The notes below the pieces were generated by a model that was not told the DNA's origin, did no database searches, and was given only the letters and a program-made list of their open reading frames with translations. Positions 12,168 through 37,641 of a DNA stretch of 64,000 bases are shown piece by piece. The translations under genes were made by a program, and so were the position numbers. This DNA comes from a virus. The stretch is taken from IMG/VR virus record IMGVR_UViG_3300036770_003758, positions 38,211-102,210 of that record; one strand, written 5' to 3'. Every line of letters begins with the position of its first letter. Positions within the stretch are counted from its first letter, which is position 1.

Positions 12168-13362
12168 AGTTGTTTAATTCCGCAATGTGCAAAACCTTTG
12201 TCTTTTCTTCATAACCAGCGATAAACTTTTGAAAGTTTACATGGTCTTTGGTTACAGGTACGTACAGAACATAGACTACTGGGTTAACACCTCTAGTAGA
12301 CCTACCTCTTCTCTGAATGTTTTGAATATCCACGCCACTTAACGATAGTATTACTACAGCGTCAATATCAGATAAGTTAATACCTTCGTTAAGCATACGT
12401 ACAGTATTCAATACTTTGATCTGTTTCGTGTTGAACTTGAAAATAGCTCTTTCAACTTCTTCTTTGGGCATCTTAGAGTGGATACAAGTACCTTCAAGAC
12501 CTTGTATTTGTTCAATAGTCTCTGCGAATACAACATATCGCTTACCTTTAAGATGTTGCTGTATGTATTGCATGTACTTAGCTTTGTGGTCAGCTAGTAT
12601 TCTTTTGCGAAGCGCACCTAACGGTAGCCATCGAGTGTCTTTTACCCACTGTTGTTTACAGTGATAGTAATAGTTTTTCCAATAATCCATCTCTGATGAT
12701 ACTACATTAAGGTACTCTTCAAAAGTACAACCTTGCACAAAGAAATCTGTGTTTATAAAACGCTTGCGACGTTCGTAGTCTCTGTATGGAATCTCATCAC
12801 TACCACGGTTCATCCTCTTAACAGGTACGCTGTAAAGGGCTGTATCTAAGTCTACGGGTACTTCTAAGCCAACAATCTTCATTGGTGGTATAATACCATT
12901 TTTCATACCTTCTGTGAGCGTAATACGCCATGATTTTACGTAGCCAGTAACTTCTTTAAGTAAAGCTCTGCGCTCTGTTGTGATAGAAGCAGACAAGCAA
13001 ATACAGTACTCAAACTTGATCTTACGTAAATCTTTAGCTGACTCTGGTGTTAACCTATGACATTCGTCTAAGACGATACCTTTAAACGTATGGTTCTCGT
13101 ACTTATATAAAGAACGGTAATTAACAAACACAAAAGAAGGCTTTAAGTTAAACTTTTTACATTCTTCTATGATGTTTTTTTCTTGAACGTTCTGTGACAT
13201 TACCCAAAGCCAAGTGCCACCAATTTCTTTAGGTGCTTTAAGCGCAGGTAATGTTTTACCAACACCAGTTTCCCAGTTTAAAAAGATACGTTTGTATTCT
13301 TTAATAAGCTCTACAGCTTTGTCTTGTATCTGAGTTAGATACTCAAAGTTTTTAGTAAACAT
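12142..13362 (-). CDS. SF2 helicase (DECH box)
   Basis: 406 residues: Q-like motif (FEYLTQIQDKAVELI), Walker A NWETGVGKTLP near residue 30, motif II LDECHR near residue 98, motif III LSAS, motif V NTVRMLNEGINLSDIDAVV and motif VI IQRRGRSTRG. This is a complete two-RecA-domain SF2 enzyme close to phage SNF2/UvsW-like helicases. A likely role is remodelling branched DNA in recombination-dependent replication. Confidence 0.85.
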   Translation of the reverse strand: MFTKNFEYLTQIQDKAVELIKEYKRIFLNWETGVGKTLPALKAPKEIGGTWLWVMSQNVQEKNIIEECKKFNLKPSFVFVNYRSLYKYENHTFKGIVLDECHRLTPESAKDLRKIKFEYCICLSASITTERRALLKEVTGYVKSWRITLTEGMKNGIIPPMKIVGLEVPVDLDTALYSVPVKRMNRGSDEIPYRDYERRKRFINTDFFVQGCTFEEYLNVVSSEMDYWKNYYYHCKQQWVKDTRWLPLGALRKRILADHKAKYMQYIQQHLKGKRYVVFAETIEQIQGLEGTCIHSKMPKEEVERAIFKFNTKQIKVLNTVRMLNEGINLSDIDAVVILSLSGVDIQNIQRRGRSTRGVNPVVYVLYVPVTKDHVNFQKFIAGYEEKTKVLHIAELNNFEYGHFTD

Positions 13363-13679
13363 TAGTTGTCATGATTTTCTTTGTAAAAAACATACATTTG
13401 TCCGTCATCGTCTTCGTACATAGAGCAAAACAACATATCTGAATACAAGAGGTCTTCAACCCTAGACACAGGTTCTCCAGTATAAAAACCTTCTTGTGCA
13501 GATATGTAAAAAGCTATTTTACATTCAGCTATAAGTCTTTCCACACCGTCTTCGTCGTCTAAATCTTCGACAACATCCAGTGCTTCAGCAAAATAATCTG
13601 GATCTAATACCCAGACAAGTAATATATTCTCAGGGTATGTGTCAGCTATAGCTTTAAGCTCCATGTACATTAAGTTCAT
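13362..13679 (-). CDS. Acidic hypothetical protein (105 aa)
   Basis: Strongly acidic (VEDLDDEDGVERLIAEC, YEDDDGQMYVFYKEN). One-base and 4-base overlaps tie it to the helicase and polymerase. Acidic phage proteins in such positions can be DNA mimics or polymerase cofactors, but nothing specific is visible. Confidence 0.6.
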   Translation of the reverse strand: MNLMYMELKAIADTYPENILLVWVLDPDYFAEALDVVEDLDDEDGVERLIAECKIAFYISAQEGFYTGEPVSRVEDLLYSDMLFCSMYEDDDGQMYVFYKENHDN

Positions 13680-17628: not shown

Positions 17629-17730
17629 TTATTTGCGTGCGATAAGTACCGTTAACCCACCGGGTTGTTCGTACAAATCGCAGTTTTCATCTTTAGGGGT
17701 AATTAGCCAATGTAAATAGTACACTTGCAT
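17629..17730 (-). CDS. Array unit 56 (33 aa)
   Basis: Begins MQVYYLHWLITPKDENCDLY and ends GGLTVLIARK. Last unit before the AAA+ gene; well-formed soluble sequence, overlapping unit 55 by 38 nt. Confidence 0.6.
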   Translation of the reverse strand: MQVYYLHWLITPKDENCDLYEQPGGLTVLIARK

Positions 17731-17821
17731 ATCTTAGTATTAAAAAGTAAGAACTGTTTGTTAAATTGTTTTCTATTCTAAGGTGCACGTGCATGTGGTA
17801 ATAAAACGTTATAAGTTTCAT
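17693..17821 (-). CDS. Array unit 55 (42 aa)
   Basis: Begins MKLITFYYHMHVHLRIENNL. Its ATG overlaps the stop of unit 54 as ATGA. The end runs into unit 56 rather than stopping at its start. Confidence 0.5.
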   Translation of the reverse strand: MKLITFYYHMHVHLRIENNLTNSSYFLILRYASVLFTLANYP

Positions 17822-18012
17822 GTTTTAAACTTTAACGTTGCCGTCATAGCACTGTGGTCAGACTTAGCGTAATTAAAAGAATCTCTTATCACGTGGTTTA
17901 AATCTAAACCAAGTATAAACTTAAGTTTGTTTAATTCCATTGCTGTAGTTTTTGAATGTAGAAAATAGAAGTCTTTACCAGCAAGAATACAGTTCGTCGT
18001 TTCATAGACCAC
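17818..18012 (-). CDS. Array unit 54 (64 aa, GTG start)
   Basis: Frame starts with GTG (VYETTNCILAGKDFYFLHS) and contains an internal ATG at 17,940 giving a usual-size 40-residue product MELNKLKFILGLDLNHV. The longer frame looks protein-like; a competing 39-codon frame (17,931-18,050) overlaps its first half. Confidence 0.5.
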   Translation of the reverse strand: MVYETTNCILAGKDFYFLHSKTTAMELNKLKFILGLDLNHVIRDSFNYAKSDHSAMTATLKFKT

Positions 18013-18050
18013 CAGTATTTCTTATTCATGTGAATGCTGTATATATTCAT

Positions 18051-18131
18051 CTATTGTAATTTTTGAACTAAACCGCAATAGTTATATTCGTATACTAAAC
18101 TACAGTGAAAAGTAGGATGTACCCACTGCAT
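18051..18131 (-). CDS. Array unit 53 (26 aa)
   Basis: Begins MQWVHPTFHCSLVYEYNYCG. Shortest unit; it starts after a TTTAAAAGT box and stops with TAG. Confidence 0.45.
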   Translation of the reverse strand: MQWVHPTFHCSLVYEYNYCGLVQKLQ

Positions 18132-18142
18132 ACTTTTAAATA

Positions 18143-18253
18143 TCAACATATTAACTTATTTATTAATATAAATATTTTTGAAGCAGCGTCTATTTTAACT
18201 GCACTAGTGTAATATTGATACGGAAACATTGTTGAAATTCCTCTTATCAGCAT
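18143..18253 (-). CDS. Array unit 52 (36 aa)
   Basis: Begins MLIRGISTMFPYQYYTSAVK and ends SKIFILINKLIC, following the hydrophobic-Lys ending common in the array. Confidence 0.55.
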   Translation of the reverse strand: MLIRGISTMFPYQYYTSAVKIDAASKIFILINKLIC

Positions 18254-18363
18254 ACCGTGTGCTTAAGTGTTAACAAATACTTAGTTCTAACAGTATTTAC
18301 TTTAGCGATATGAAAGTTAAAGTGAAAATTCTGGCATTTGACAACTATATTAATTACTTGCAT
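18247..18363 (-). CDS. Array unit 51 (38 aa)
   Basis: Ends NTVRTKYLLTLKHTVC; the segment TKYLLTLK also occurs near the end of unit 45 (TKYLLTIK), suggesting common origin. Confidence 0.55.
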   Translation of the reverse strand: MQVINIVVKCQNFHFNFHIAKVNTVRTKYLLTLKHTVC

Positions 18364-18464
18364 ACCATGTATTTCAACAAGGCTTTTACATCGACTCTAT
18401 TTTCATTAGCGTTTCTGAAGCAAAAGTCTTGTGCCCTTGTTAATCTTAAATCAGATAGCTCCAT
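18354..18464 (-). CDS. Array unit 50 (36 aa)
   Basis: Begins MELSDLRLTRAQDFCFRNAN and ends ALLKYMVCK; compare ends of units 20, 48 and 49. Coupled to unit 49 through ATGTAATGG. Confidence 0.6.
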   Translation of the reverse strand: MELSDLRLTRAQDFCFRNANENRVDVKALLKYMVCK

Positions 18465-18592
18465 TACATGTATTTTAATAAAGTTATGTAATTCTTTCTT
18501 TTGTAATGTTCAGCATACGTGGTTATCATCTCGTAGCTGTTACCAATTGCGTAGTCTAATATAATGTCGTATAAACGATCGTTTATTTCCAT
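18464..18592 (-). CDS. Array unit 49 (42 aa)
   Basis: Begins MEINDRLYDIILDYAIGNSY and ends KNYITLLKYM. Well-formed amphipathic helical sequence. Confidence 0.65.
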   Translation of the reverse strand: MEINDRLYDIILDYAIGNSYEMITTYAEHYKRKNYITLLKYM

Positions 18593-18708
18593 AACATGTA
18601 TTTTGCGATTAACCTAATGTCAACGTCAAGTTTTTCTGCAGTATCTTCAAATCGTATAAGTTTCTTTGAACCAAAAAAACTTACATTATACAATGTAGTA
18701 CACCTCAT
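18583..18708 (-). CDS. Array unit 48 (41 aa)
   Basis: Begins MRCTTLYNVSFFGSKKLIRF, ends IRLIAKYMLWK. Its stop lies just inside unit 49, so the last residues are read across the next start. Confidence 0.6.
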   Translation of the reverse strand: MRCTTLYNVSFFGSKKLIRFEDTAEKLDVDIRLIAKYMLWK

Positions 18709-18818
18709 ACAATAAATTTTAGACAGCAATCGTGAAAAACAAATGGCCAAGTAGAAGCTTTGTATAGTTCTTTACAACCAGCAGAGTAGTTTGTGAACCT
18801 AAACATTAACGTGGTCAT
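18705..18818 (-). CDS. Array unit 47 (37 aa)
   Basis: Begins MTTLMFRFTNYSAGCKELYK. Three Cys, aromatic-rich. ATGA overlaps on both sides. Confidence 0.55.
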   Translation of the reverse strand: MTTLMFRFTNYSAGCKELYKASTWPFVFHDCCLKFIV

Positions 18819-18943
18819 TTGTATTTGTTTTTAGACTTACGTTGATCTTTTTTGTATTCTACGTAGGCCATCGTGTAAGCAAACACTAGAATAAAGCTTA
18901 CGATAAACAAAAACCCTAAAATTATTTTTGCGAAATTATCCAT
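18815..18943 (-). CDS. Array unit 46, membrane miniprotein (42 aa)
   Basis: Begins MDNFAKIILGFLFIVSFILV: one transmembrane helix (about residues 5-26) followed by a Lys/Arg-rich tail. It differs from the soluble units and may be an unrelated gene nested in the array. Confidence 0.65.
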   Translation of the reverse strand: MDNFAKIILGFLFIVSFILVFAYTMAYVEYKKDQRKSKNKYK

Positions 18944-18945
18944 GG

Positions 18946-19050
18946 TTATATGTATTTAATTGTTAACAAATATTTAGTATTAAACATTTCTCCTGATATA
19001 AAAGTGTGTACAGGTTGTATGTGGTATCTGTTTAATCTTTCTGTTGGCAT
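18946..19050 (-). CDS. Array unit 45 (34 aa)
   Basis: Begins MPTERLNRYHIQPVHTFISG and ends TKYLLTIKYI, similar to the end of unit 51. Confidence 0.55.
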   Translation of the reverse strand: MPTERLNRYHIQPVHTFISGEMFNTKYLLTIKYI

Positions 19051-19217
19051 TGGTGAAATTTTACAATTAGTTGATAAGTATTTCTAACAGTAGGTGTGTA
19101 AAACATCATGGTGTATACGTGATATTTTATCTTTACTACAGGCATTTTACAATTAGTTGTTGATAAGCATTTATAATAGTAGGTACATGATAGGGCATGT
19201 TGTGCGCATGATACCAT
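19032..19217 (-). CDS. Array unit 44 (61 aa, perhaps a fusion)
   Basis: Begins MVSCAQHALSCTYYYKCLST. Two internal DNA copies of CATTTTACAATTAGTTG (plus-strand sense) suggest two former units merged; an internal ATG would give a 37-residue product ending YQLIVKFHQCQQKD. Confidence 0.45.
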   Translation of the reverse strand: MVSCAQHALSCTYYYKCLSTTNCKMPVVKIKYHVYTMMFYTPTVRNTYQLIVKFHQCQQKD

Positions 19218-19224
19218 ATTTTTA

Positions 19225-19329
19225 TCACATGCATTTTACAATTATTTTTAAGTAGTGATCATAATAAGGTTTCCACATAAGCTTTCTACTTATACGAGCA
19301 CGTGTGTAATCTATTTCTTCACTCCACAT
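19225..19329 (-). CDS. Array unit 43 (34 aa)
   Basis: Begins MWSEEIDYTRARISRKLMWK. Its start overlaps the end of unit 42 in a different phase from the usual ATGA. Confidence 0.5.
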   Translation of the reverse strand: MWSEEIDYTRARISRKLMWKPYYDHYLKIIVKCM

Positions 19330-19432
19330 ATTTTGTAGTTATTAAAGTGTACGCGGCTGTATACGTAAATGTTCTATACAGTATATAAACATTATTCTTG
19401 TCAAATAAATAAAAAGATTTAGCTATATTCAT
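19319..19432 (-). CDS. Array unit 42 (37 aa)
   Basis: Begins MNIAKSFYLFDKNNVYILYR. Tyr-rich, with the ending TLITTKYVE. ATGA overlap with unit 41. Confidence 0.55.
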   Translation of the reverse strand: MNIAKSFYLFDKNNVYILYRTFTYTAAYTLITTKYVE

Positions 19433-19551
19433 TTTTGTTTAAATACGATTAAATAAATAGTATTTACATTGTCAAAATCTGCATCACAGTACTTTTCTTT
19501 TTTAGAGCAGTAGTAATACTGATAATAAAAATCGTCAACTTCAAATTCCAT
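19429..19551 (-). CDS. Array unit 41 (40 aa)
   Basis: Begins MEFEVDDFYYQYYYCSKKEK. Acidic and Tyr-rich, unlike most units. Confidence 0.55.
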   Translation of the reverse strand: MEFEVDDFYYQYYYCSKKEKYCDADFDNVNTIYLIVFKQK

Positions 19552-19554
19552 AGT

Positions 19555-19653
19555 TTACAGTTTATACGTTTGTGATACAATAAAGTGCAACTTAGTTCCA
19601 CCAAACTTGATTTTGTGAACAAAAACTTCTTGCATAATAAAGAATATGTTCAT
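19555..19653 (-). CDS. Array unit 40 (32 aa)
   Basis: Begins MNIFFIMQEVFVHKIKFGGT. Beta-prone; ATGA overlap with unit 39. Confidence 0.5.
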   Translation of the reverse strand: MNIFFIMQEVFVHKIKFGGTKLHFIVSQTYKL

Positions 19654-19745
19654 AGCTGTTTAATTAGCACAAGATTTGAACCTAAATTGTAGTTAAATGG
19701 TACAAAAAGTTGACCAGGTACGTGAAATTTAAACTCCATTATCAT
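19650..19745 (-). CDS. Array unit 39 (31 aa)
   Basis: Contains MEFKFHVPGQLFVPFNYNL, which lines up with unit 38 (SYTFYVP..YPAITIEYHL); probable paralogue. Confidence 0.55.
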   Translation of the reverse strand: MIMEFKFHVPGQLFVPFNYNLGSNLVLIKQL

Positions 19746-19746
19746 G

Positions 19747-19845
19747 TCAGTAGTATTTAAGCATTGTGATAAACGCGTGTAGATGATACTCTATCGTTAT
19801 AGCTGGATAGCATTTAGGCACGTAGAACGTATAGCTTTGTTCCAT
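19747..19845 (-). CDS. Array unit 38 (32 aa)
   Basis: Begins MEQSYTFYVPKCYPAITIEY; probable paralogue of unit 39. Ends FITMLKYY. Confidence 0.55.
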   Translation of the reverse strand: MEQSYTFYVPKCYPAITIEYHLHAFITMLKYY

Positions 19846-19859
19846 AGTAGATATTTTAC

Positions 19860-19982
19860 TTATCTGCATCGTATATGTTTTACTACAATTCTAAATCCAA
19901 TGTCTAGTGTAAGGTCTAATATATTTCTATTAGGAAACCTGAGTTCGTAATTAGCTTGTACAAGCGTGTTATAATACATCAT
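19860..19982 (-). CDS. Array unit 37 (40 aa)
   Basis: Begins MMYYNTLVQANYELRFPNRN and ends FRIVVKHIRCR; reads past the next start before stopping. Confidence 0.55.
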   Translation of the reverse strand: MMYYNTLVQANYELRFPNRNILDLTLDIGFRIVVKHIRCR

Positions 19983-20104
19983 TGCCGTAGAAATTTTAAC
20001 ATTAAAATAAACCTATCTCTTTCTGTCATATTGTTGTGTATGTATTGAATAACACTTTTACCCATACCTCTAAAATCTGGATATATAGCTGTTAAATACA
20101 TCAT
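19979..20104 (-). CDS. Array unit 36 (41 aa), paralogue of unit 35
   Basis: Begins MMYLTAIYPDFRGMGKSVIQ. 23 of the first 40 positions are identical to unit 35 without gaps, including YP.FR.MGK, IQY and DRFI..LKF. The sequence resembles the acetyl-CoA-binding turn of GNAT enzymes but is far too short to be one. Confidence 0.7.
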   Translation of the reverse strand: MMYLTAIYPDFRGMGKSVIQYIHNNMTERDRFILMLKFLRQ

Positions 20105-20223
20105 GGTATAAACTTTAGTGTAAAAATAAATCTGTCTATTTCAGATATATTCTCAGGTAAATATTGAATAATGTTCTTACCCATGTTTCTAAACTCTGGG
20201 TACATAGCAAGTAAAGACATCAT
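20101..20223 (-). CDS. Array unit 35 (40 aa), paralogue of unit 36
   Basis: Begins MMSLLAMYPEFRNMGKNIIQ; the closest pair in the array is units 35 and 36. Conserved protein positions with diverged codons argue that the frame is translated. Confidence 0.7.
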   Translation of the reverse strand: MMSLLAMYPEFRNMGKNIIQYLPENISEIDRFIFTLKFIP

Positions 20224-20342
20224 AGTATTTGTTTTAATGTTATACTAAACCCATGACATACTGGTTCACGTAAACCATGTAGATAAGTGTATTTTATTTT
20301 TGTGCGACTGTGATTAAATAAAATCGCAATTAAATTTCTCAT
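20220..20342 (-). CDS. Array unit 34 (40 aa)
   Basis: Begins MRNLIAILFNHSRTKIKYTY and ends GFSITLKQIL; the ending FSITLK recurs in unit 28. Confidence 0.6.
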   Translation of the reverse strand: MRNLIAILFNHSRTKIKYTYLHGLREPVCHGFSITLKQIL

Positions 20343-20470
20343 GGTACGTGTTTTAAGATAAGTTGAAATCTATCATAAGATGTGATTCTTTCTTGTGTTT
20401 TAAGCGTTTTTTTCAAAGGTGTAAATTTTCTGCGATAAGTTTTAAGAAGCCAGAAGTGTATTGATTTCAT
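20339..20470 (-). CDS. Array unit 33 (43 aa)
   Basis: Begins MKSIHFWLLKTYRRKFTPLK and ends YDRFQLILKHVP; DRFQLILKH is identical to unit 32. Confidence 0.6.
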   Translation of the reverse strand: MKSIHFWLLKTYRRKFTPLKKTLKTQERITSYDRFQLILKHVP

Positions 20471-20586
20471 TACATATGTTTTAAAATAAGTTGAAACCTA
20501 TCCTCGTACACAATATCAGCTACAAGATTTGCTTCTACCCTACTCTTGTAAGCTGCAGGATTGCGTACAAATATTACTGCTAACAT
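20470..20586 (-). CDS. Array unit 32 (38 aa)
   Basis: Begins MLAVIFVRNPAAYKSRVEAN and ends EDRFQLILKHM, sharing nine consecutive residues with unit 33. Confidence 0.6.
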   Translation of the reverse strand: MLAVIFVRNPAAYKSRVEANLVADIVYEDRFQLILKHM

Positions 20587-20693
20587 GGTATTTGTTTTAA
20601 TGTAGCATACAATCTGCGTACAGTATTTCCTGGGTTACATAAGTTTATGCGCAAGTATCTGTAAAAATCAATTTGTATTTCAATATTCTTCAT
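20580..20693 (-). CDS. Array unit 31 (37 aa)
   Basis: Begins MKNIEIQIDFYRYLRINLCN; ends ATLKQIPC, reading across the next start. Confidence 0.55.
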   Translation of the reverse strand: MKNIEIQIDFYRYLRINLCNPGNTVRRLYATLKQIPC

Positions 20694-20803
20694 GATGTTT
20701 GTTTTAATATTACAGTAATTTTTATACGTTTTATATCTATCTCAATATTTCTTACAAAATCATCACAACGTGTACTTGAACAATCGATAATTACAACTGT
20801 CAT
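20690..20803 (-). CDS. Array unit 30 (37 aa)
   Basis: Begins MTVVIIDCSSTRCDDFVRNI; ends ITVILKQTS. ATGA overlaps on both sides. Confidence 0.6.
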   Translation of the reverse strand: MTVVIIDCSSTRCDDFVRNIEIDIKRIKITVILKQTS

Positions 20804-20904
20804 TGTATATGTTTTAAAATAATAGAAAAGCCCTCGCGACCGCTGTATCCTAGTATCATTACAGTCAAATAAGCGGCTGTATATCCATATGAGTAAGTTT
20901 TCAT
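20800..20904 (-). CDS. Array unit 29 (34 aa), paralogue of unit 28
   Basis: Begins MKTYSYGYTAAYLTVMILGY. Same length as unit 28 with 16 of 34 identical positions, including LG.SG.E.FSI.LK. Confidence 0.65.
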   Translation of the reverse strand: MKTYSYGYTAAYLTVMILGYSGREGFSIILKHIQ

Positions 20905-21005
20905 GGTATCAACTTTAAAGTAATCGAAAAGGATTCATCTCCACTATGTCCTAGTTCGTGCACAGAAATACAACTGTATGTGTGTTCATATGCCCATGTG
21001 TTCAT
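20901..21005 (-). CDS. Array unit 28 (34 aa), paralogue of unit 29
   Basis: Begins MNTWAYEHTYSCISVHELGH and ends DESFSITLKLIP. Tandem copy of unit 29. Confidence 0.65.
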   Translation of the reverse strand: MNTWAYEHTYSCISVHELGHSGDESFSITLKLIP

Positions 21006-21106
21006 AACATTAGTTTTAATATTATTGATAAATCATCTTGAATAAAATCGTACACTTCAGGTGCATTTATAATATGTGTTCCAAGAACTAAGTGTATCGT
21101 GTTCAT
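21002..21106 (-). CDS. Array unit 27 (34 aa)
   Basis: Begins MNTIHLVLGTHIINAPEVYD and ends QDDLSIILKLML; belongs with units 22 and 24-26 sharing an acidic-aromatic-LK ending. Confidence 0.6.
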   Translation of the reverse strand: MNTIHLVLGTHIINAPEVYDFIQDDLSIILKLML

Positions 21107-21213
21107 AGTATAAACTTTATCATAACTAGAAAATCATCGTCAAAAAATGGTATTAAACCACGATCTTTGTCTACTAGTTTGCAAGAATATATTACGTATG
21201 TTGTTACGTCCAT
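21103..21213 (-). CDS. Array unit 26 (36 aa)
   Basis: Begins MDVTTYVIYSCKLVDKDRGL and ends DDDFLVMIKFIL, parallel to unit 24 (NDDFIITLKLIL). Confidence 0.6.
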   Translation of the reverse strand: MDVTTYVIYSCKLVDKDRGLIPFFDDDFLVMIKFIL

Positions 21214-21290
21214 AATATTTTCATTGTAATTAAAATACTATCTTCTCCATAGAATATGTGATCTACAAGTGTTATGTATTTTGTGTCCAC
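21204..21290 (-). CDS. Array unit 25 (28 aa, GTG start)
   Basis: Starts with GTG after TTAAAACTAATATT; contains DTKYITLVDHIFYGEDSILI. Short member of the acidic-ending group. Confidence 0.5.
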   Translation of the reverse strand: MDTKYITLVDHIFYGEDSILITMKILWT

Positions 21291-21397
21291 AATATTAGTT
21301 TTAACGTGATTATAAAATCATCGTTTAGGTTAGTAGAATATTTTAACACGCTCAATAAACACGAGTGCGCAGTAACTAATGTTTTTGTACATTCCAT
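21272..21397 (-). CDS. Array unit 24 (41 aa)
   Basis: Begins MECTKTLVTAHSCLLSVLKY; contains NDDFIITLKLIL then WTQNT read across the GTG start of unit 25. Confidence 0.6.
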   Translation of the reverse strand: MECTKTLVTAHSCLLSVLKYSTNLNDDFIITLKLILWTQNT

Positions 21398-21522
21398 CTC
21401 AATACAATTAAGAAATCTTTATCTTCAAGTTTTGTTTTTTCTAGTCTATCCAGTAAATGCTTGTTATCGTGTGTACCAATAGGCATACATAGATCTAACA
21501 TTGTAAAATGTGCTATTTCCAT
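21376..21522 (-). CDS. Array unit 23 (48 aa)
   Basis: Begins MEIAHFTMLDLCMPIGTHDN; includes RLEKTKLEDKDFLIVLRW, whose KDFLIVL resembles the DDF.. endings of neighbouring units. Confidence 0.6.
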   Translation of the reverse strand: MEIAHFTMLDLCMPIGTHDNKHLLDRLEKTKLEDKDFLIVLRWNVQKH

Positions 21523-21647
21523 CACATGTATTTAACCATAAAAATAAAATCATTCTTGACGTAGCTACAATTACTAAATGCTAAGTAATCTAAATACAGT
21601 TTACAATCTATACTGTGTACCCACATTGTTAAGTCTGTAAATTTCAT
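21522..21647 (-). CDS. Array unit 22 (41 aa)
   Basis: Begins MKFTDLTMWVHSIDCKLYLD and ends KNDFIFMVKYM. Confidence 0.6.
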   Translation of the reverse strand: MKFTDLTMWVHSIDCKLYLDYLAFSNCSYVKNDFIFMVKYM

Positions 21648-21766
21648 AACATGTACTTATTTGCTAACTGTAAAATAACCTTAAGATGTGCACAGTTGAT
21701 ATAAGATGGAGTAAACACATCATTATCTAGTAAGATGTATTCCCAATCCCTATGTTCTACTTGCAT
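21644..21766 (-). CDS. Array unit 21 (40 aa)
   Basis: Begins MQVEHRDWEYILLDNDVFTP; ends LQLANKYML. The first half resembles unit 20 (VETGWNYI.D.F..PYI). Confidence 0.6.
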   Translation of the reverse strand: MQVEHRDWEYILLDNDVFTPSYINCAHLKVILQLANKYML

Positions 21767-21876
21767 AACATATACTTTTTTATAAGCCTAAAGTTAGGTT
21801 TAAAGAAAGCGTATTTAATAATATAAGGTTCAAGAAATGCATCTGTAATATAATTCCAACCAGTTTCTACTTTCAC
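21757..21876 (-). CDS. Array unit 20 (39 aa, GTG start)
   Basis: GTG-started; begins VKVETGWNYITDAFLEPYII, alignable with unit 21 (QVEHRDWEYILLDNDVFTPSYI). Ends LIKKYMLCK. Confidence 0.55.
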   Translation of the reverse strand: MKVETGWNYITDAFLEPYIIKYAFFKPNFRLIKKYMLCK

Positions 21877-21992
21877 GATATCTGTTTTACAATAATTAAA
21901 GGTAATACAGTAGGCTTACTTATTTTGCGATCAGCATCATACATTGGATTTGATATAGGGAGGTTTACGTAAAACGTCATAAATGCTATCAT
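21873..21992 (-). CDS. Array unit 19 (39 aa)
   Basis: Begins MIAFMTFYVNLPISNPMYDA; ends PLIIVKQIS. Confidence 0.55.
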   Translation of the reverse strand: MIAFMTFYVNLPISNPMYDADRKISKPTVLPLIIVKQIS

Positions 21993-22114
21993 GGTACATA
22001 TTTTAATACGAATACAGTAATATCTATGTTAGGTGCATGTTTTGATTCAGTGTGAAATCTATAGATATCGTGAAGTCTATAACTATCAAAAGTGTAATCT
22101 AATGAAGCTTTCAT
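21989..22114 (-). CDS. Array unit 18 (41 aa), paralogue of unit 16
   Basis: Begins MKASLDYTFDSYRLHDIYRF; shares M+A.L.YT, a KH.PN.DI.V core and the VxKYV ending with unit 16, with a six-residue insertion. Confidence 0.65.
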   Translation of the reverse strand: MKASLDYTFDSYRLHDIYRFHTESKHAPNIDITVFVLKYVP

Positions 22115-22206
22115 ACAAGCGTTTTAAGAGTTACAATAAACTGTTGTGTCAAATACGAGTGTGAATAAAATCTCCAGTCTAGTTCGTATACTTTCTTTAC
22201 GCTCAT
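22111..22206 (-). CDS. Array unit 17 (31 aa)
   Basis: Begins MSVKKVYELDWRFYSHSYLT; ends FIVTLKTLV. Confidence 0.55.
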   Translation of the reverse strand: MSVKKVYELDWRFYSHSYLTQQFIVTLKTLV

Positions 22207-22310
22207 TGTACGTATTTTATTACAAGTACAGCAATATCCCTATTGTGCGGATGTTTTAATTCAGGATGGATTTTATGACCACCTCTAGTGTAGTTTAATA
22301 AAGCTCTCAT
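22203..22310 (-). CDS. Array unit 16 (35 aa), paralogue of unit 18
   Basis: Begins MRALLNYTRGGHKIHPELKH and ends IAVLVIKYVQ. See unit 18. Confidence 0.65.
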   Translation of the reverse strand: MRALLNYTRGGHKIHPELKHPHNRDIAVLVIKYVQ

Positions 22311-22408
22311 ACAGATATTTTATTGATGGTTAAAAAAGATGTACCTGCGTAAGTTATTTTTAATTTTACTCTAGGGCTGTCGACCCATAAAATGTATAAC
22401 AACTTCAT
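22307..22408 (-). CDS. Array unit 15 (33 aa)
   Basis: Begins MKLLYILWVDSPRVKLKITY; ends FLTINKISV. Confidence 0.55.
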   Translation of the reverse strand: MKLLYILWVDSPRVKLKITYAGTSFLTINKISV

Positions 22409-22506
22409 TCTGCATTTTTTATGATAGCAAATAAACATAATCCAGCTTTACCAGATCTTCTGTCATTTTTAAGGTTAGTGCCTACGACACTGTGTGTTAT
22501 AATCAT
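22405..22506 (-). CDS. Array unit 14 (33 aa), paralogue of unit 12
   Basis: Begins MIITHSVVGTNLKNDRRSGK. Ungapped match to unit 12 with 12 of 33 identities, including N.K....SG.AG..LF.I.K. Confidence 0.65.
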   Translation of the reverse strand: MIITHSVVGTNLKNDRRSGKAGLCLFAIIKNAE

Positions 22507-22619
22507 TGTATGTGTTTTAAGTTAATTCTAAATCTAAGTACAGTAATGACATAGGTTTTAAGATCTATTTTAAGTACTATGTCAGGTTGCATAGTTTGTA
22601 CAAATCCTACAAATTTCAT
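22503..22619 (-). CDS. Array unit 13 (38 aa)
   Basis: Begins MKFVGFVQTMQPDIVLKIDL; ends RFRINLKHIQ. Lies between the paralogues 12 and 14, so any duplication was of a multi-gene block or was followed by rearrangement. Confidence 0.6.
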   Translation of the reverse strand: MKFVGFVQTMQPDIVLKIDLKTYVITVLRFRINLKHIQ

Positions 22620-22717
22620 GGTTTGTATTTTAAAATAAAAAATAAAGAAAATCCTGCTTCACCAGATTTGTAATTGTGTTTAAAATTAGATTCTCCAATA
22701 CTTAAAATCGCTGTCAT
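22616..22717 (-). CDS. Array unit 12 (33 aa), paralogue of unit 14
   Basis: Begins MTAILSIGESNFKHNYKSGE and ends SLFFILKYKP. Confidence 0.65.
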   Translation of the reverse strand: MTAILSIGESNFKHNYKSGEAGFSLFFILKYKP

Positions 22718-22863
22718 GGTATGTGTTTTACAATAGCTCCAAAATTACTTGCGTTGTGATTCAAGTTTAAATAATCTACAGCTTCGTGTAAACGTATAGT
22801 CATGTAGTTATTTATGTACGGTGTAGTAACTGCTCTGTACATCATTAAGTCTATAAACTTCAT
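22714..22863 (-). CDS. Array unit 11 (49 aa)
   Basis: Begins MKFIDLMMYRAVTTPYINNY at the ATG that overlaps unit 10's stop. The frame is open further upstream to 22,941, but that extension is antisense in phase to unit 10 and unlikely. Ends FGAIVKHIP. Confidence 0.6.
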   Translation of the reverse strand: MKFIDLMMYRAVTTPYINNYMTIRLHEAVDYLNLNHNASNFGAIVKHIP

Positions 22864-22985
22864 GATATAAGTTTTAATATAAACAAATGTCCACGACTTT
22901 GGTGAGATGCGTTCATTACGTAGTTTTTTGGAAGTGTCCAATCATTTACAGGTGGTACGTATGCAATTATGTGTTTTGTTTCCAC
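22860..22985 (-). CDS. Array unit 10 (41 aa, GTG start)
   Basis: GTG-started after TTAAAAGTAATACC; begins VETKHIIAYVPPVNDWTLPK. Ends LFILKLIS with the usual ATGA overlap. Confidence 0.55.
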   Translation of the reverse strand: METKHIIAYVPPVNDWTLPKNYVMNASHQSRGHLFILKLIS

Positions 22986-23089
22986 GGTATTACTTTTAAT
23001 ATGATTAATGTTTTTATTGATATCATACTTGTTAGCAATCGTACGTTGTGAGAATATTTATCGTTTTTAAAAAGCGGTACTGTTCTCAT
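22967..23089 (-). CDS. Array unit 9 (40 aa)
   Basis: Begins MRTVPLFKNDKYSHNVRLLT; ends IILKVIPWKQNT, the last five residues being read across the GTG start of unit 10. Confidence 0.55.
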   Translation of the reverse strand: MRTVPLFKNDKYSHNVRLLTSMISIKTLIILKVIPWKQNT

Positions 23090-23217
23090 AAAACTAGTTT
23101 TAACGTAAAATAAGCAGAATAAGGTGGTACATTATCTAGCTGTAATATCTCAAGTGCGTGGTCTGTTAAAGTACATACAAACTCGTCTTTAACAAGTGTC
23201 ATTTCAATAAACCTCAT
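23086..23217 (-). CDS. Array unit 8 (43 aa)
   Basis: Begins MRFIEMTLVKDEFVCTLTDH; ends YFTLKLVL. Confidence 0.6.
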   Translation of the reverse strand: MRFIEMTLVKDEFVCTLTDHALEILQLDNVPPYSAYFTLKLVL

Positions 23218-23336
23218 AGCTTATACTTTTGTACAATTATTACTTTCTTCTTAGTAGTTGTGTAGTTTAACGGCCCTTTCCATGTAGTAAAGTGCGTACG
23301 TACAGTATCTATAAATATTAAATCGACATTGTTCAC
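23214..23336 (-). CDS. Array unit 7 (40 aa, GTG start)
   Basis: GTG-started after GCAAAAACATAAGCT; begins VNNVDLIFIDTVRTHFTTWK. It lies within the 3' part of unit 6 in another frame and has the standard position and ending (VIIVQKYKL). Confidence 0.5.
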   Translation of the reverse strand: MNNVDLIFIDTVRTHFTTWKGPLNYTTTKKKVIIVQKYKL

Positions 23337-23472
23337 AGCTTATGTTTTTGCACAAAAAAAAGTAATTACGATCTTTAAAAGTGTGATCTACCACTATAGG
23401 TATTTCCGCAAAGTTGATTGTCAAAAGTGTAAAGCTGTTTTTGAATATTAATACTATATAAACATTGCTCAT
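23251..23472 (-). CDS. Array unit 6 (73 aa)
   Basis: Begins MSNVYIVLIFKNSFTLLTIN. It runs 86 nt past the start of unit 7 without a stop, so the natural product may have ended nearby before a small deletion. It has paired Cys in FFLCKNISCEQCRF. Confidence 0.45.
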   Translation of the reverse strand: MSNVYIVLIFKNSFTLLTINFAEIPIVVDHTFKDRNYFFLCKNISCEQCRFNIYRYCTYALYYMERAVKLHNY

Positions 23473-23582
23473 AGCTTATATTTTAATAAGATATTGTAAT
23501 GAAGCATGTAATTACCTCTACCTGTGAGATATACATCTATACCATTGTCACGTATATCTAACAATAATCTGAGTGTGTTCAT
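23469..23582 (-). CDS. Array unit 5 (37 aa)
   Basis: Begins MNTLRLLLDIRDNGIDVYLT; ends YNILLKYKL. Confidence 0.6.
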   Translation of the reverse strand: MNTLRLLLDIRDNGIDVYLTGRGNYMLHYNILLKYKL

Positions 23583-23704
23583 TTTCTGTATTTTATTACA
23601 GCCCAGAAATGCATCAATAAACCTGTACCTATATGTCGATGTAATATTATATTACCATCTGTAGATTTAAAGTTTGATATCTCAAGTACTCCTAAGTAGT
23701 TCAT
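23579..23704 (-). CDS. Array unit 4 (41 aa)
   Basis: Begins MNYLGVLEISNFKSTDGNII; ends WAVIKYRK. ATGA overlaps on both sides. Confidence 0.6.
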   Translation of the reverse strand: MNYLGVLEISNFKSTDGNIILHRHIGTGLLMHFWAVIKYRK

Positions 23705-23805
23705 GGCACCAGTTTTAATATCGATAAATAACAAAAATCAATTTTTAAAAATCTCTTTGATTTAGGGCACTCATCATGCAGTGAGTACATTATAAATAAG
23801 TACAT
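23701..23805 (-). CDS. Array unit 3 (34 aa)
   Basis: Begins MYLFIMYSLHDECPKSKRFL; ends YLSILKLVP. It starts after TTAAAACACATACC but with six extra bases before the ATG. Confidence 0.55.
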   Translation of the reverse strand: MYLFIMYSLHDECPKSKRFLKIDFCYLSILKLVP

Positions 23806-23905
23806 AGATAGGTATGTGTTTTAATATTGCAAAAGCAGTTAGCTTAGATATAGATAATAATCTACTGTACACTTTAATATCAGCAAACAAAATTGTAGTT
23901 TTCAT
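23774..23905 (-). CDS. Array unit 2 (43 aa)
   Basis: Begins MKTTILFADIKVYSRLLSIS; FAILKHIP sits where other units end, but no stop follows and the frame runs 32 nt into unit 3. Confidence 0.5.
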   Translation of the reverse strand: MKTTILFADIKVYSRLLSISKLTAFAILKHIPIYVLIYNVLTA

Positions 23906-24006
23906 AACATGGTTTTAACTGTTACAGGTATGCTAATTTCATCAGGTAGTAATATATATGAATAAAGTTTATTTTGCTGCGTTATGTACAAAACTTCCAT
24001 TTTCAT
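23902..24006 (-). CDS. Array unit 1 (34 aa)
   Basis: Begins MKMEVLYITQQNKLYSYILL; ends VTVKTML. First unit in transcription order, preceded by TTTAATATACC and by a hairpin at 24,028. Confidence 0.55.
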   Translation of the reverse strand: MKMEVLYITQQNKLYSYILLPDEISIPVTVKTML

Positions 24007-25670: not shown

Positions 25671-26378
25671 TTAAGATTGTTCAACAATAAGTTTAAAGAA
25701 ATCCTCTTTGTTCATGTGGTACGGTGAATCTAACCACGGTTTACCTACATATTCTGGTTTAATCGTAGTGATAATAACTTCACCTTGACGGCGTATACAC
25801 TTAATGTGCTCAAGTGGTATCCTAGTTCTAAAAGCCCATGCTACTGCTGCTGCAGCATCATAGCTGCCTTTTTTGCAGAATTTTTCAGTGTGCGGCACCA
25901 TCAAGAAATACGGTGTACCAAAGTGTACGTCGAATACTTGTACAGCATACACGTGTGTTACCTTTTTACCGTTGATTGCAGGTTCACGCATCTCAGGGAA
26001 TACCTCTTTAATAGGCCTCCTTCTGAGAATGTAGTGGTTCGTAATCGTAGAGTCTTTCTGCTTAGTTTCTACAGTACGCTCATCTACAATTTCTGCATCA
26101 GCAAAGATAGTAGAAAACGGTAAAAACCTGAACAGTGCTTGGCGTTTAGCAGAAGCTTGTTCTGCCCGTAAATTAGGGAACAGTGACTTAAAATCAGAGA
26201 GTTCAGAAAACGTAATTGGTGTTACATCTTTCCAGATTTCTCTGATAAAATCATTGTTAAGTACAGGAAGATCTATGAACATGTCATCAAGATCTTCCTT
26301 GTACTTAGCCTTTAGTACCCTCAGTGCAAAGTCGAAAGGGAACAAAAAGTTCCCAATCTGAAGTACTTTCATCTTCAT
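25671..26378 (-). CDS. Hypothetical protein (235 aa)
   Basis: Begins MKMKVLQIGNFLFPFDFALR. Mixed alpha/beta, with HYILRRRPIKEVFPEMREPA in the middle and a helical C-terminus. No motif recognised. The 4-nt overlap with the upstream gene suggests coupling. Confidence 0.6.
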   Translation of the reverse strand: MKMKVLQIGNFLFPFDFALRVLKAKYKEDLDDMFIDLPVLNNDFIREIWKDVTPITFSELSDFKSLFPNLRAEQASAKRQALFRFLPFSTIFADAEIVDERTVETKQKDSTITNHYILRRRPIKEVFPEMREPAINGKKVTHVYAVQVFDVHFGTPYFLMVPHTEKFCKKGSYDAAAAVAWAFRTRIPLEHIKCIRRQGEVIITTIKPEYVGKPWLDSPYHMNKEDFFKLIVEQS

Positions 26379-34706: not shown

Positions 34707-35273
34707 TTAACGATTGAACCACGGATGATACCACACCCGACATGCTGCTATTGGTGTACCCTGCTGAATCATCTTGGCATTAGGATGAATTTCATTTGCA
34801 GAGAAACCGGGATACGTTTTGTTTTGGTTTCCCAGCCAATTCATGTGATACATTTGCCAATCGTAATATTGGCGTACCGTTTCGCGAATGTGGTCGTGCA
34901 CTGTTTCGCGAAATTTGTGCAAATCCTGGCCAATAAATTTAATAGGTCCGGCGTAAAAACCGTCCCTCATGTGCGTTTTAAACCCGCCATTGTCTATTTC
35001 TTCTTGAAAAAGGAAATAGATTTTTTCTATTTCATCTTCCAAGTATTGCGGAATCGCTAACTCAAAATCTTCTGGGTTAGCCTCTAAGGCAAAAAACCAT
35101 CCATCAAGAATTTCTTGATGCTCTTTTGGTATGTCTTCGTAATAAGTAACACAGTTTCCGGCGCGGCGAGGGTCATTTAGCTTGATTTGAAATCCTGGTT
35201 CTTTTCCATTTTTGTACGTAAAAAAGCTCGCCCAAAACGATAGCTTATTTTGTCCTGAAATATCAAAAGCCAT
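34707..35273 (-). CDS. Hypothetical protein (188 aa)
   Basis: Begins MAFDISGQNKLSFWASFFTY. Rich in Trp, Tyr and His, with two long helices and a WYHPWFNR end. Codon use is more GC-rich than nearby genes, suggesting recent acquisition. It sits between two structured segments. No family recognised. Confidence 0.6.
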   Translation of the reverse strand: MAFDISGQNKLSFWASFFTYKNGKEPGFQIKLNDPRRAGNCVTYYEDIPKEHQEILDGWFFALEANPEDFELAIPQYLEDEIEKIYFLFQEEIDNGGFKTHMRDGFYAGPIKFIGQDLHKFRETVHDHIRETVRQYYDWQMYHMNWLGNQNKTYPGFSANEIHPNAKMIQQGTPIAACRVWYHPWFNR

Positions 35274-35388
35274 AATTCTTCGCCCATGCCCTTGGGTCTT
35301 TTTCCGGCTCCTGGCACGCCGTGGTTTTTGAAATTAATAAGGTTATCACGCTTACCTTTCGCGACAAGTTTTATATAAGCACTAATAC

Positions 35389-35632
35389 TGTATCAAGTAC
35401 AGATATAAGCCATGCAAAAACTTGCAAAAACTTTCAAGGATTCTCACCTTAACTAAAATGTAGTATGTCAGCATCAATGACATCCATAGAGAACATGAGT
35501 ATTGTACTCTCTATTATACTACATTATAATTGCACACTTTATCTGGGAACTACGAGATGCTAAGTACATAGCGATCCATAGTGAGTGTGCATAAAACATA
35601 TCTACCAGTTTTCTCTAGATATGTTATAATAT
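35389..35632. ncRNA. String of stems (structured RNA candidate)
   Basis: Perfect stems follow one another: CTGTA/TACAG (35,389-35,402); ATGTAGTAT/ATACTACAT (35,458 and 35,516) enclosing GTC-ATGAC and ATAGAGA..GAGTA/TACTC..TCTCTAT; TGCACACT/AGTGTGCA (35,531 and 35,584); AACATATCTA/TAGATATGTT (35,595-35,625). No ORF. Direction unknown. Confidence 0.55.
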
Positions 35633-35633
35633 T

Positions 35634-35770
35634 AAAAACCAGGTGCGGTTACTACCGTATCTTATAGACCTTAGTAGCTAGGCTTTAGAGATGACAATTC
35701 TCTACCCTATCCTTTATTCGATGTACTACATAACTATAAAGGCAATAGTTATATAGCGCACCTGGTTTTT
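35634..35770 (-). terminator. Giant branched terminator or ncRNA, 14-bp closing stem
   Basis: AAAAACCAGGTGCG pairs perfectly with CGCACCTGGTTTTT 110 bases away. Inside are TACTA/TAGTA, TAGAGA/TCTCTA and ATAACTAT/ATAGTTAT. It directly follows the stop of gene 35,774-36,043, and the 3' strand of the stem ends in U's on the minus strand, like a terminator with a cloverleaf inserted in its loop. Confidence 0.65.
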
Positions 35771-35773
35771 TTA

Positions 35774-36043
35774 TTAAGAAATAGCTATTTCTTTTGATTT
35801 GTAAATTTCATCATCAGGTGGTATAGATATTACTACTCTGACAAAATGATTTTCACACAACCCCCAAGCTACAACAGCTAGAGGTTCGTATTTTTCAGAT
35901 TCTTTGTATTCTATCGCAATTTGGTATCCAGATTGCCACGGTAAATTCCTTAATCCTTCTCGATACGGAGTTAAAAAGCTGTCAATTTCTTCTTGTGCTT
36001 TTTCACTGTACATTTCATACTGTATCTTAACAGTTTTTATCAT
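35774..36043 (-). CDS. Hypothetical protein (89 aa)
   Basis: MIKTVKIQYEMYSEKAQEEI, then YQIAIEYKESEKYEPLAVVA: strand-helix-strand-strand. Ends at the giant branched terminator. Function unknown. Confidence 0.6.
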   Translation of the reverse strand: MIKTVKIQYEMYSEKAQEEIDSFLTPYREGLRNLPWQSGYQIAIEYKESEKYEPLAVVAWGLCENHFVRVVISIPPDDEIYKSKEIAIS

Positions 36044-36051
36044 AACATTAC

Positions 36052-36119
36052 CTCAACGATTTTAGAGGATTTATTTAAACCAGTACGTTACTCTGGTTTT
36101 AAGGTTTTTGAAAGTTGAG
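36052..36119. other. Nested stems in a 110-bp gap
   Basis: CTCAAC pairs with GTTGAG around AAACCAG/CTGGTTT (both perfect). A leader or attenuator of the gene at 36,043, or the 3' end of gene 36,155, is possible. Confidence 0.4.
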
Positions 36120-36786: not shown

Positions 36787-36831
36787 ACTAGTATATTATA
36801 TAGGTTAAAAAATTGTGTTTTACACCTAAAA

Positions 36832-37641
36832 CTTTGATTATTCATACAATGTCTTCTATTTGAAGATTCTGTAGTTGTCTACAGTAGTAAACACTCGATA
36901 CTCGAGTGGTTTTTAATCAAAGAAACTGGTGCCCTCAACAACTTGGGAATTTATTGAGTTTTTTATTCTCTGCACTCAGTTGTAACCTATAGAATCTATC
37001 ACTGTTACAGAACCTACAACTCTACAGTTTTTTGTAACGAAGGTTCAATAGGTTGATTCTTTTAGATACCTTAGACCTGTAGCTACTCAGGAAAGGTTAC
37101 AACTGTAGTGCAAAAACTAATCAACCGCTGTGAGCTTTTTATCACAGATAATAGAGTATTACCTCTTAGCCACTAATTAACTTAAAAAAAGTTAAAAAGT
37201 GCAGTTGATTAGTTTGTTATGTAATAAGTGATAATCCTTAAAACATAACTGGCTGTGGTAGGTGAACAGCTTAAACACCAATAGATTTTACAGTTCTATT
37301 CAACTGGCTGCAACAGGCATCACAAAGCTAATATCAGATTATCCTGATATTGGTCAAGCTTTGTTTAGCCCCTCACCCGTTAGGGCATGTTGCAGCAATT
37401 TCTAGCTTAATCTACACTTATAGCCGACCAAAGCTATAAGCTGATTTAAAAAAGATTAAAATAGGTACATGTGGTAACGATACAATTTAGTACCGCTACC
37501 GGAATATTTAAAAGTGATAAAATTTGTCTTAAAACACTGGATTTGAGCCGCGAAAACTCAAATCACTTTGTAGTTGAAAGAGTTGTGATAAATGGTGTTG
37601 AGTGGTTAATACCCTCTACACACACTACACAACTCCTTCAT
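36832..37641 (-). ncRNA. Large structured RNA candidate, about 800 nt
   Basis: No ORF; more than fifteen perfect stems. Domain 1: CTTTGATTA/TAATCAAAG (36,832 and 36,914) around hairpins at 36,852, 36,869 and 36,892. Domain 2: TGCACT-CAGTTGTAACC (36,971-36,987) with GGTTACAACTG-T-AGTGCA (37,095-37,112). Domain 3: CTAATCAAC/GTTGATTAG (37,117 and 37,204) around three hairpins. Domain 4: GCTGCAACA/TGTTGCAGC (37,307 and 37,388) enclosing two 8-bp stems. Last: GAA-GAGTTGTG with CACAACTC-TTC, where a G-U favours the minus strand. Confidence 0.65.

Follow-up and report, generated by a model that had tools for sequence, protein, structure and literature searches.

A divergent hatchet-ribozyme relative between two small genes of a distant crAss-like phage

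Hatchet ribozymes (Rfam RF02678) have a P1 helix of three or six base pairs, are cut between C and U at the base of P1, and carry their most conserved bases in the linker between P1 and P2 and in the bulge between P2 and P3; a further hairpin, P0, is present in about 90% of them, and when the class was described there was no completely sequenced genome carrying one, all according to the excerpted text of the original description (PMC4604424). In the Rfam consensus the P2-P3 bulge is asymmetric, with UGG and AGACGUUAAAAU as its two sides. The theta ribozymes have an HDV-like fold, which is a double pseudoknot, and in this they differ from the element reported here. They resemble it in being small ribozymes of gut phages, often located near tRNA genes, and processing of the transcript has been proposed for those next to phage tRNAs, as far as the accessible part of PMC10879173 goes. 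RAGATH-7 and RAGATH-9, two Rfam families of conserved RNAs, are carried by similar phages: in contig L046 a canonical hatchet is followed after about 1.1 kb by RAGATH-9, and L129 contains RAGATH-7. Their structures are different, and no RAGATH RNA was found in the 64,000 nucleotides of viral DNA analysed here (the window).

The window is part of a virus record of 102,210 bases (G000). The head proteins encoded in the record match the PHROG families of major head, terminase and portal proteins, and the best matches of the major head protein in the phage collection are the crAss-like "cr" phages with about 25% identity; on the basis of these matches the phage is a distant crAss-like phage. The structures considered here occupy a gap of 500 bases flanked by two minus-strand genes without a known family, one upstream (35774..36043) encoding 89 amino acids and one downstream (34707..35273) encoding 188 amino acids, and the gap is located near the start of a leftward gene block that is probably early. 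A 5' leader at 36040-36113 on the minus strand, containing the stem AAACCAGAGTAACGTACTGGTTT, is 99% conserved in the related contig L001 and in part in L002 and L004. The leader precedes different genes, as if gene exchange had happened behind a constant start, and in L001 another gene is found behind the same 5' region in place of the 89-residue one.

A first-pass annotation had marked 35389-35770 as a run of long perfect stems ending in a cloverleaf, and had proposed one RNA with several modules. All of the claimed stems are present where they had been placed; besides the cloverleaf there are stems at 35592-35628 and 35451-35531. Folded as RNA, the region reaches -100.6 kcal/mol on the plus strand (z -5.32) and -112.2 kcal/mol on the minus strand (z -5.16), and none of 100 dinucleotide shuffles was as good in either case, so the comparison with shuffled sequence that the annotation had suggested comes out in its favour on both strands, with z about -5. 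Stability alone says little about function, since in a scan of the whole window (914 tiles of 140 nt over both strands, every tile compared with 16 shuffles, mean z -1.0) 18 tiles have z <= -5.8 and are equally extreme; by the same count the region is not a unique structured spot. The most extreme fold of the scan, with z about -11 on both strands, is at 26182-26321, inside an ORF (25671-26378). The many stable spots are what would favour stems arising by chance in AT-rich DNA, an explanation with next to no probability against the shuffles on either strand and the covariation described below, by which chance is already refuted for the core.

Comparison with close relatives separates the region into parts of different constancy. 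The terminase of L001 is 98% identical to that of the window, and the identity of L001 is 98% over 35364-35454 and 93% over 35531-35630; the 76-base stem between these blocks and the whole cloverleaf are missing, and the other gene replaces 35774-36043. L004 keeps 35325-35450 with 95% identity, and the upstream stems have no match there. From L001 and L004 it is the low-coordinate end that is the constant piece, while the striking stems are the variable part. The conserved element reaches 28 bases below the annotated start, to about 35361, and it is a unit of about 93 nt on the minus strand rather than a single RNA of 382 nt. The modular layout proposed for the region holds, with stems gained and lost between close relatives, and so does the expected covariation, at one end only and not over the 382 nt as one unit. 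The greatest stability lies outside the conserved element: the core folded alone has z -1.36, with 17 of 200 shuffles folding as well, and it is recognised by covariation, its energy being unremarkable.

The two hairpins lying in the upstream block of 93% identity, hairpin C (ACATATCTA/TAGATATGT, 35592..35628) and hairpin B (GCACACT/AGTGTGC, 35532..35590), both read on the minus strand, are common to the window and L001, and in L001 hairpin B stands directly 5' of P1. Their retention, and the clustering of all stems within a single intergenic gap whose flanking genes share a strand, would suit a multi-domain RNA of the full 382 nt with the cloverleaf as a working domain; this is improbable, as the cloverleaf and the P0-like stem are cleanly gone from L001 next to an almost identical core, L004 lacks the upstream stems, and no homologue of the cloverleaf was found.

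The cloverleaf itself (35634..35770, minus strand) starts 3 nt behind the stop codon of the 89-residue gene, and is closed by the arms AAAAACCAGGTGCG (35634-35647) and CGCACCTGGTTTTT (35757-35770), which are 14 nt long, 100% complementary and 109 nt apart; it has an A-tract and a T-tract. Folded alone it gives z -5.87 and -5.78 on the two strands, with none of 200 shuffles as good. Neither the search for a homologue of the cloverleaf in the phage collection nor a blastn search of phages with the full 500 nt gave a match (best E 2 in both), and a tRNA or tRNA remnant was rejected, as neither the tRNA model nor ARAGORN matched 35634-35770. Since it has no homologue, is absent from L001 and lies 3 nt behind the gene, the cloverleaf looks like the 3' end of the 89-residue gene, a separate and strain-variable structure. 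We incline, with modest confidence, to a terminator or 3'-end stabiliser of this gene, unrelated to the core, which is compatible with the explanation preferred below for the core. The A-tract, G+C-rich stem and T-tract directly behind the stop codon agree with this, as does the disappearance of the structure where the gene is exchanged; compared with an intrinsic terminator, stem and T-tract are present, but the 109-nt loop far exceeds the normal size and the terminator scan does not call it.

The annotation had also seen a kinship in style to a larger RNA 1 kb away, which finds no support, as the RNA there holds a different conserved element (motif 1, 36808-36966, minus strand) that shows no relation to the core at the level of sequence. 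Motif 1 is a second conserved RNA-like motif, with CTCAATAAMTTCCCAAGNNRTTGAGGGCACCAGTTTCTT ... AAGTTTTAGGTGTAAAA around a variable stem; it was aligned in 12 sequences (the 3' end is missing from the L037 slice), its 5' block is present in 72 viral contigs, and the window copy has no Rfam match. A CCC/GGG pair of blocks is changed to TCC/GGA in L010, L041 and L042, as would be the case in a pseudoknot. Upstream of motif 1, at 36990-37480 on the minus strand, there are long-range stems (37114-37128/37201-37215 and 36977-36988/37094-37105), and L001 has no alignment over 36815-37522.

The constant piece has three blocks, GGUGAGAAUCC, GGCUUAUAUCU and AGUAUUAGUG, in common with the crAss-like phage cr115_1. 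Pattern scans added phage contigs, and nine sequences folded together show covariation; the pattern matches in L025, L027 and L031, without the AGTATTAGTG strand, were dropped as chance. Rfam names the gut-phage copies Hatchet ribozyme (L046 91.0, L061 90.3, L064 76.4 and L009 103.5 bits), and the Hatchet model scores such canonical places at 76-103 bits. A new RNA family was ruled out by this identification, and a riboswitch of one gene family by the genes behind the element, which differ from phage to phage. With RF02678 the window copy gave no match in G000, nor in 35270-35780 at E <= 10. Model R2, built from ten window-type sequences only, was searched over 25 sources and found 12 canonical hatchet copies at 11 loci with E values from 2.3e-6 to 0.024, ranking directly below its own three members and ahead of all other matches. 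R2 also gave E 0.39 and 0.71 for two more canonical copies, and it failed to find four others present in these loci (one each in L035, L037 and L039, and the second one in L009). This homology is good support for the core being a hatchet relative, although a divergent one.

In an alignment of 22 members (A5) the core of the window belongs to subtype a and extends from P1 to P2' over 35361..35453 on the minus strand, where R2 gives 88.4 bits, the window being itself among the ten sequences of the model. P1 (35434..35452, with 35452-35447 paired to 35439-35434) is a hairpin of 6 bp, in agreement with the known lengths, and has the loop UGAGAAU as in phage hatchets; over the 22 sequences 97.0% of its cells are paired, and three of the six pairs have double-sided changes. 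The linker L1, AAGUUUUUG (35425..35433), takes the place of CAA in canonical phage hatchets, and leads into P2 (35365..35424, with 35424-35417 paired to 35372-35365), which has 8 bp and as in the hatchet is the closing helix, enclosing P3 and P4; here 97.7% of the cells are paired, with double-sided changes in five of the six counted pairs. The P2-P3 bulge reads UGCAU on its 5' side (35412..35416) and UUAUAU on its 3' side (35373..35378), the latter in the place of canonical AGACGUUAAAAU. P3 (35381..35410, with 35410-35404 paired to 35387-35381) contains an internal U.U mismatch and a bulged U35403 towards P4. Its strands are the same as in several phage copies, and one of its pairs is A-U in 11 and G-C in the other 11 of the 22 sequences. 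P4 (TGTATCAAGTACA, 35388..35402, with 35402-35398 paired to 35392-35388), the first stem of the earlier annotation, is variable as in the hatchet, each of its three outer pairs being changed on both sides in 14 of the 22. The predicted cleavage step is at the base of P1, 35452..35453, a position taken over from the hatchet as given in the text used of PMC4604424. The motif AAGUUUU occurs twice in 35417-35433 on the minus strand, in the linker and in the 5' strand of P2, and both copies could pair with AAAACUU at 35372-35366, so that a switch between pairings is possible in the window and in L001.

Directly 5' of P1 there is a nested stem (35454..35528, minus strand), the one absent from L001, which in the fold of the window leaves 1 nt before P1. 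In 21 folded copies the 3'-most stem before P1 ends 0-17 nt upstream, and a hairpin adjoining P1 in this way fits the variable P0 stem of the hatchet.

Over the 22 distinct sequences and 27 pairs (P1-P4 and linker-bulge), 96.1% of 591 cells are paired against 77.3% in shuffled sequence, none of 500 shuffles reaching this value, and double-sided changes are found in 116 cells against 31.8 in the shuffles; controls with partners slid by 1-3 columns give 26-47% pairing. This alignment was fitted to the model and leans towards its structure, and a hand-aligned count for ten members (59/60 cells in P1, 74/80 in P2, 47/50 in P4) agrees with it. The first ten members were collected with patterns that prescribed the P1 loop together with parts of P3, or by a terminase search, and the other twelve with a pattern fixing only the P1 loop and linker L1, so that P2, P3 and P4 of the twelve were not selected. 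Conservation of the pattern-fixed letters (P1 loop, P3 pieces, linker) is no evidence, because the sequences were selected by them; free to vary were P2, P4, the bulge and the base preceding P1, and among the twelve also P3. P2, P3 and P4 follow each other in the order of the hatchet, and the energy fold shows this for the window and for several, not all, members, the fold of L004 containing only P1 of the proposed structure and that of L021 lacking P1. An element acting as DNA, such as a cruciform, an origin or a recombination site, would share the strong inverted repeats and the modular gain and loss, but it is very improbable, as the double-sided changes, with G-U pairs among them, are those expected of RNA helices formed by one strand, and as the core is related to a known ribozyme.

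The differences from RF02678 are concentrated where the hatchet is most conserved. Canonical phage copies have the linker CAA (12 of 12), a P2 of 5 bp and the bulge AGAC-GUUAAAAU, whereas P2 of the window type has 6-9 bp and the bulge is short and without AGACGUUAAAAU; AGAC is found in the bulge of none of the 22 members, subtype b having AGAA next to P2. The first seven nucleotides of the linker exist in three versions only, AAGUUUU in 5, AACGUUU in 10 and AACGCUU in 7 members; the AA is kept with no fixed C before it, the preceding base being the outer base of P1 (G in 9, A in 5, U in 4 and C in 4 of the 22). The base before P1 is a purine in all 22 (A in 14, G in 8), in contrast to a pyrimidine in 12 of 12 canonical copies, with C among the last two bases. 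Because the changes in the linker, in the bulge and at the cleavage site are themselves conserved, the element is, judged from these alignments, a subfamily and not an ordinary hatchet; several defining features of the class were examined and read differently here, for which reason it is not filed as one, and the Rfam model does not detect it. Subtype b has an additional pairing not found in the hatchet, since RcCGU, which follows the 5' strand of P2, is able to base-pair with ACGY of the linker. In this pairing the Y-R pair co-switches in 17 of 17 members of this subtype (10 U-A, 7 C-G), on several P1 and P2 backgrounds, which is equalled by 5 of 100000 permutations, and the other three linker-bulge pairs are invariant in the 17. 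In subtype a, to which the window belongs, there are only five members and the pairing is not clear. L013, L141, L142, L146 and others of subtype b have in common a 3' stretch behind the core, in which a hairpin is followed by GATAAACCAGTAATGG with a GNRA-like loop.

The limitation to three linker versions in 22 members and the Y-R pair kept in 17 of 17 point to a maintained function, as far as can be read from the alignments. We give slightly better than even chances to a core that still cleaves. A descendant that has lost self-cleavage and is kept as a structural or protein-binding RNA, serving 3'-end protection or elongation control, is a less probable reading that nevertheless deserves weight: the changes are concentrated in the linker, the bulge and the cleavage-site bases with P1 loop and P3 kept, and it is surprising that a ribozyme should conserve a P1 loop that had been removed in an active construct, according to the portion of PMC4604424 consulted. 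Against such a loss, linker and subtype-b linker-bulge pair are conserved as expected for a rebuilt, not a decayed, active site, and L142 carries canonical and subfamily copies side by side. It is also conceivable, at somewhat under even chances, that a separate ribozyme class has arisen on the hatchet scaffold, which would cut next to a purine, with the AA-N-N-Y-U-U linker as active site and, in subtype b, pairing of this linker with the bulge as a pseudoknot across P2, and which would replace the ordinary hatchet in several crAss-like lineages.

Our preferred reading, which we consider fairly probable, is a divergent hatchet relative with a variable P0 in front, cutting an early polycistronic message between two small genes. 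The RNA would fold while the polycistronic message is made and would be cleaved at the base of P1, at about 35453/35452; the stems of P0, of hairpins B and C and of the cloverleaf would then protect the 3' end of the upstream mRNA, and the downstream mRNA would start with the ribozyme. Both types are on the coding strand wherever annotation or ORFs permit a look, and a tRNA gene often lies no more than a few kilobases away. In annotated gut phages their position is close to the beginning of a gene block opening at a divergent gap, and the genes that follow them differ. On the simplest reading they would process a long early transcript, in a role comparable to that proposed for theta ribozymes, and that the cutting serves mRNA end formation is a tentative suggestion.

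For the window type, the linker pattern returned 4 contigs of subtype a, all of which were already in the set, and the other pattern 17 of subtype b, 12 of them new, which brings the members to 22 phage contigs, that of the window included. Canonical hatchets above the Rfam cut-off are present in 11/22, 3/50, 3/9 and 1/12 records of the four sets searched, and in nine of 15 named phage records (W01, W02, W08, W09, W10, W11, W12, W13 and W15), several gut phages carrying two or three; the cultured phages crAss001, crAss002 and DAC15 have no canonical hatchet above that cut-off. Both types were found together in a single record, G066 (L142), on the same strand and 0.7 kb apart, with the canonical hatchet at 12676-12809 (82.1 bits) and the subfamily copy at 13484-13608; neither ARAGORN nor Rfam called a tRNA between them. 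Neither type was found in G002, the terminase of which is 76% identical. Nine of the 12 new contigs encode a homologue of the window's terminase, as do 12 records in a further set of 18; misses say little here, most contigs being fragments. A further model, R1, combines the two types and did not detect the canonical copies that RF02678 finds in W08, W09, W10 and W12, so its negatives were not counted as absence. Of the 70 new loci of motif 1, 45 were searched for both ribozyme types.

No report of hatchets in crAss-like phages was found in the open-licence literature by title or opening of the abstract. The hatchet class gains with these phages a carrier and a genomic place in which it can be tested, early gene blocks often near tRNA genes, and in the subfamily nature has provided an experiment on the ways in which the active site of a ribozyme scaffold can be altered.

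Elsewhere in the window, 17693-24006 on the minus strand contains about 45 tandem mini-ORFs of 20-73 codons (mostly 31-45), which cover 5349 of 6441 bases. Many have a similar tail (..ILKHI., ..TLKFIP) and a repeated lead resembling TTTTAAAACATA, and the run may be a large array of related microproteins.
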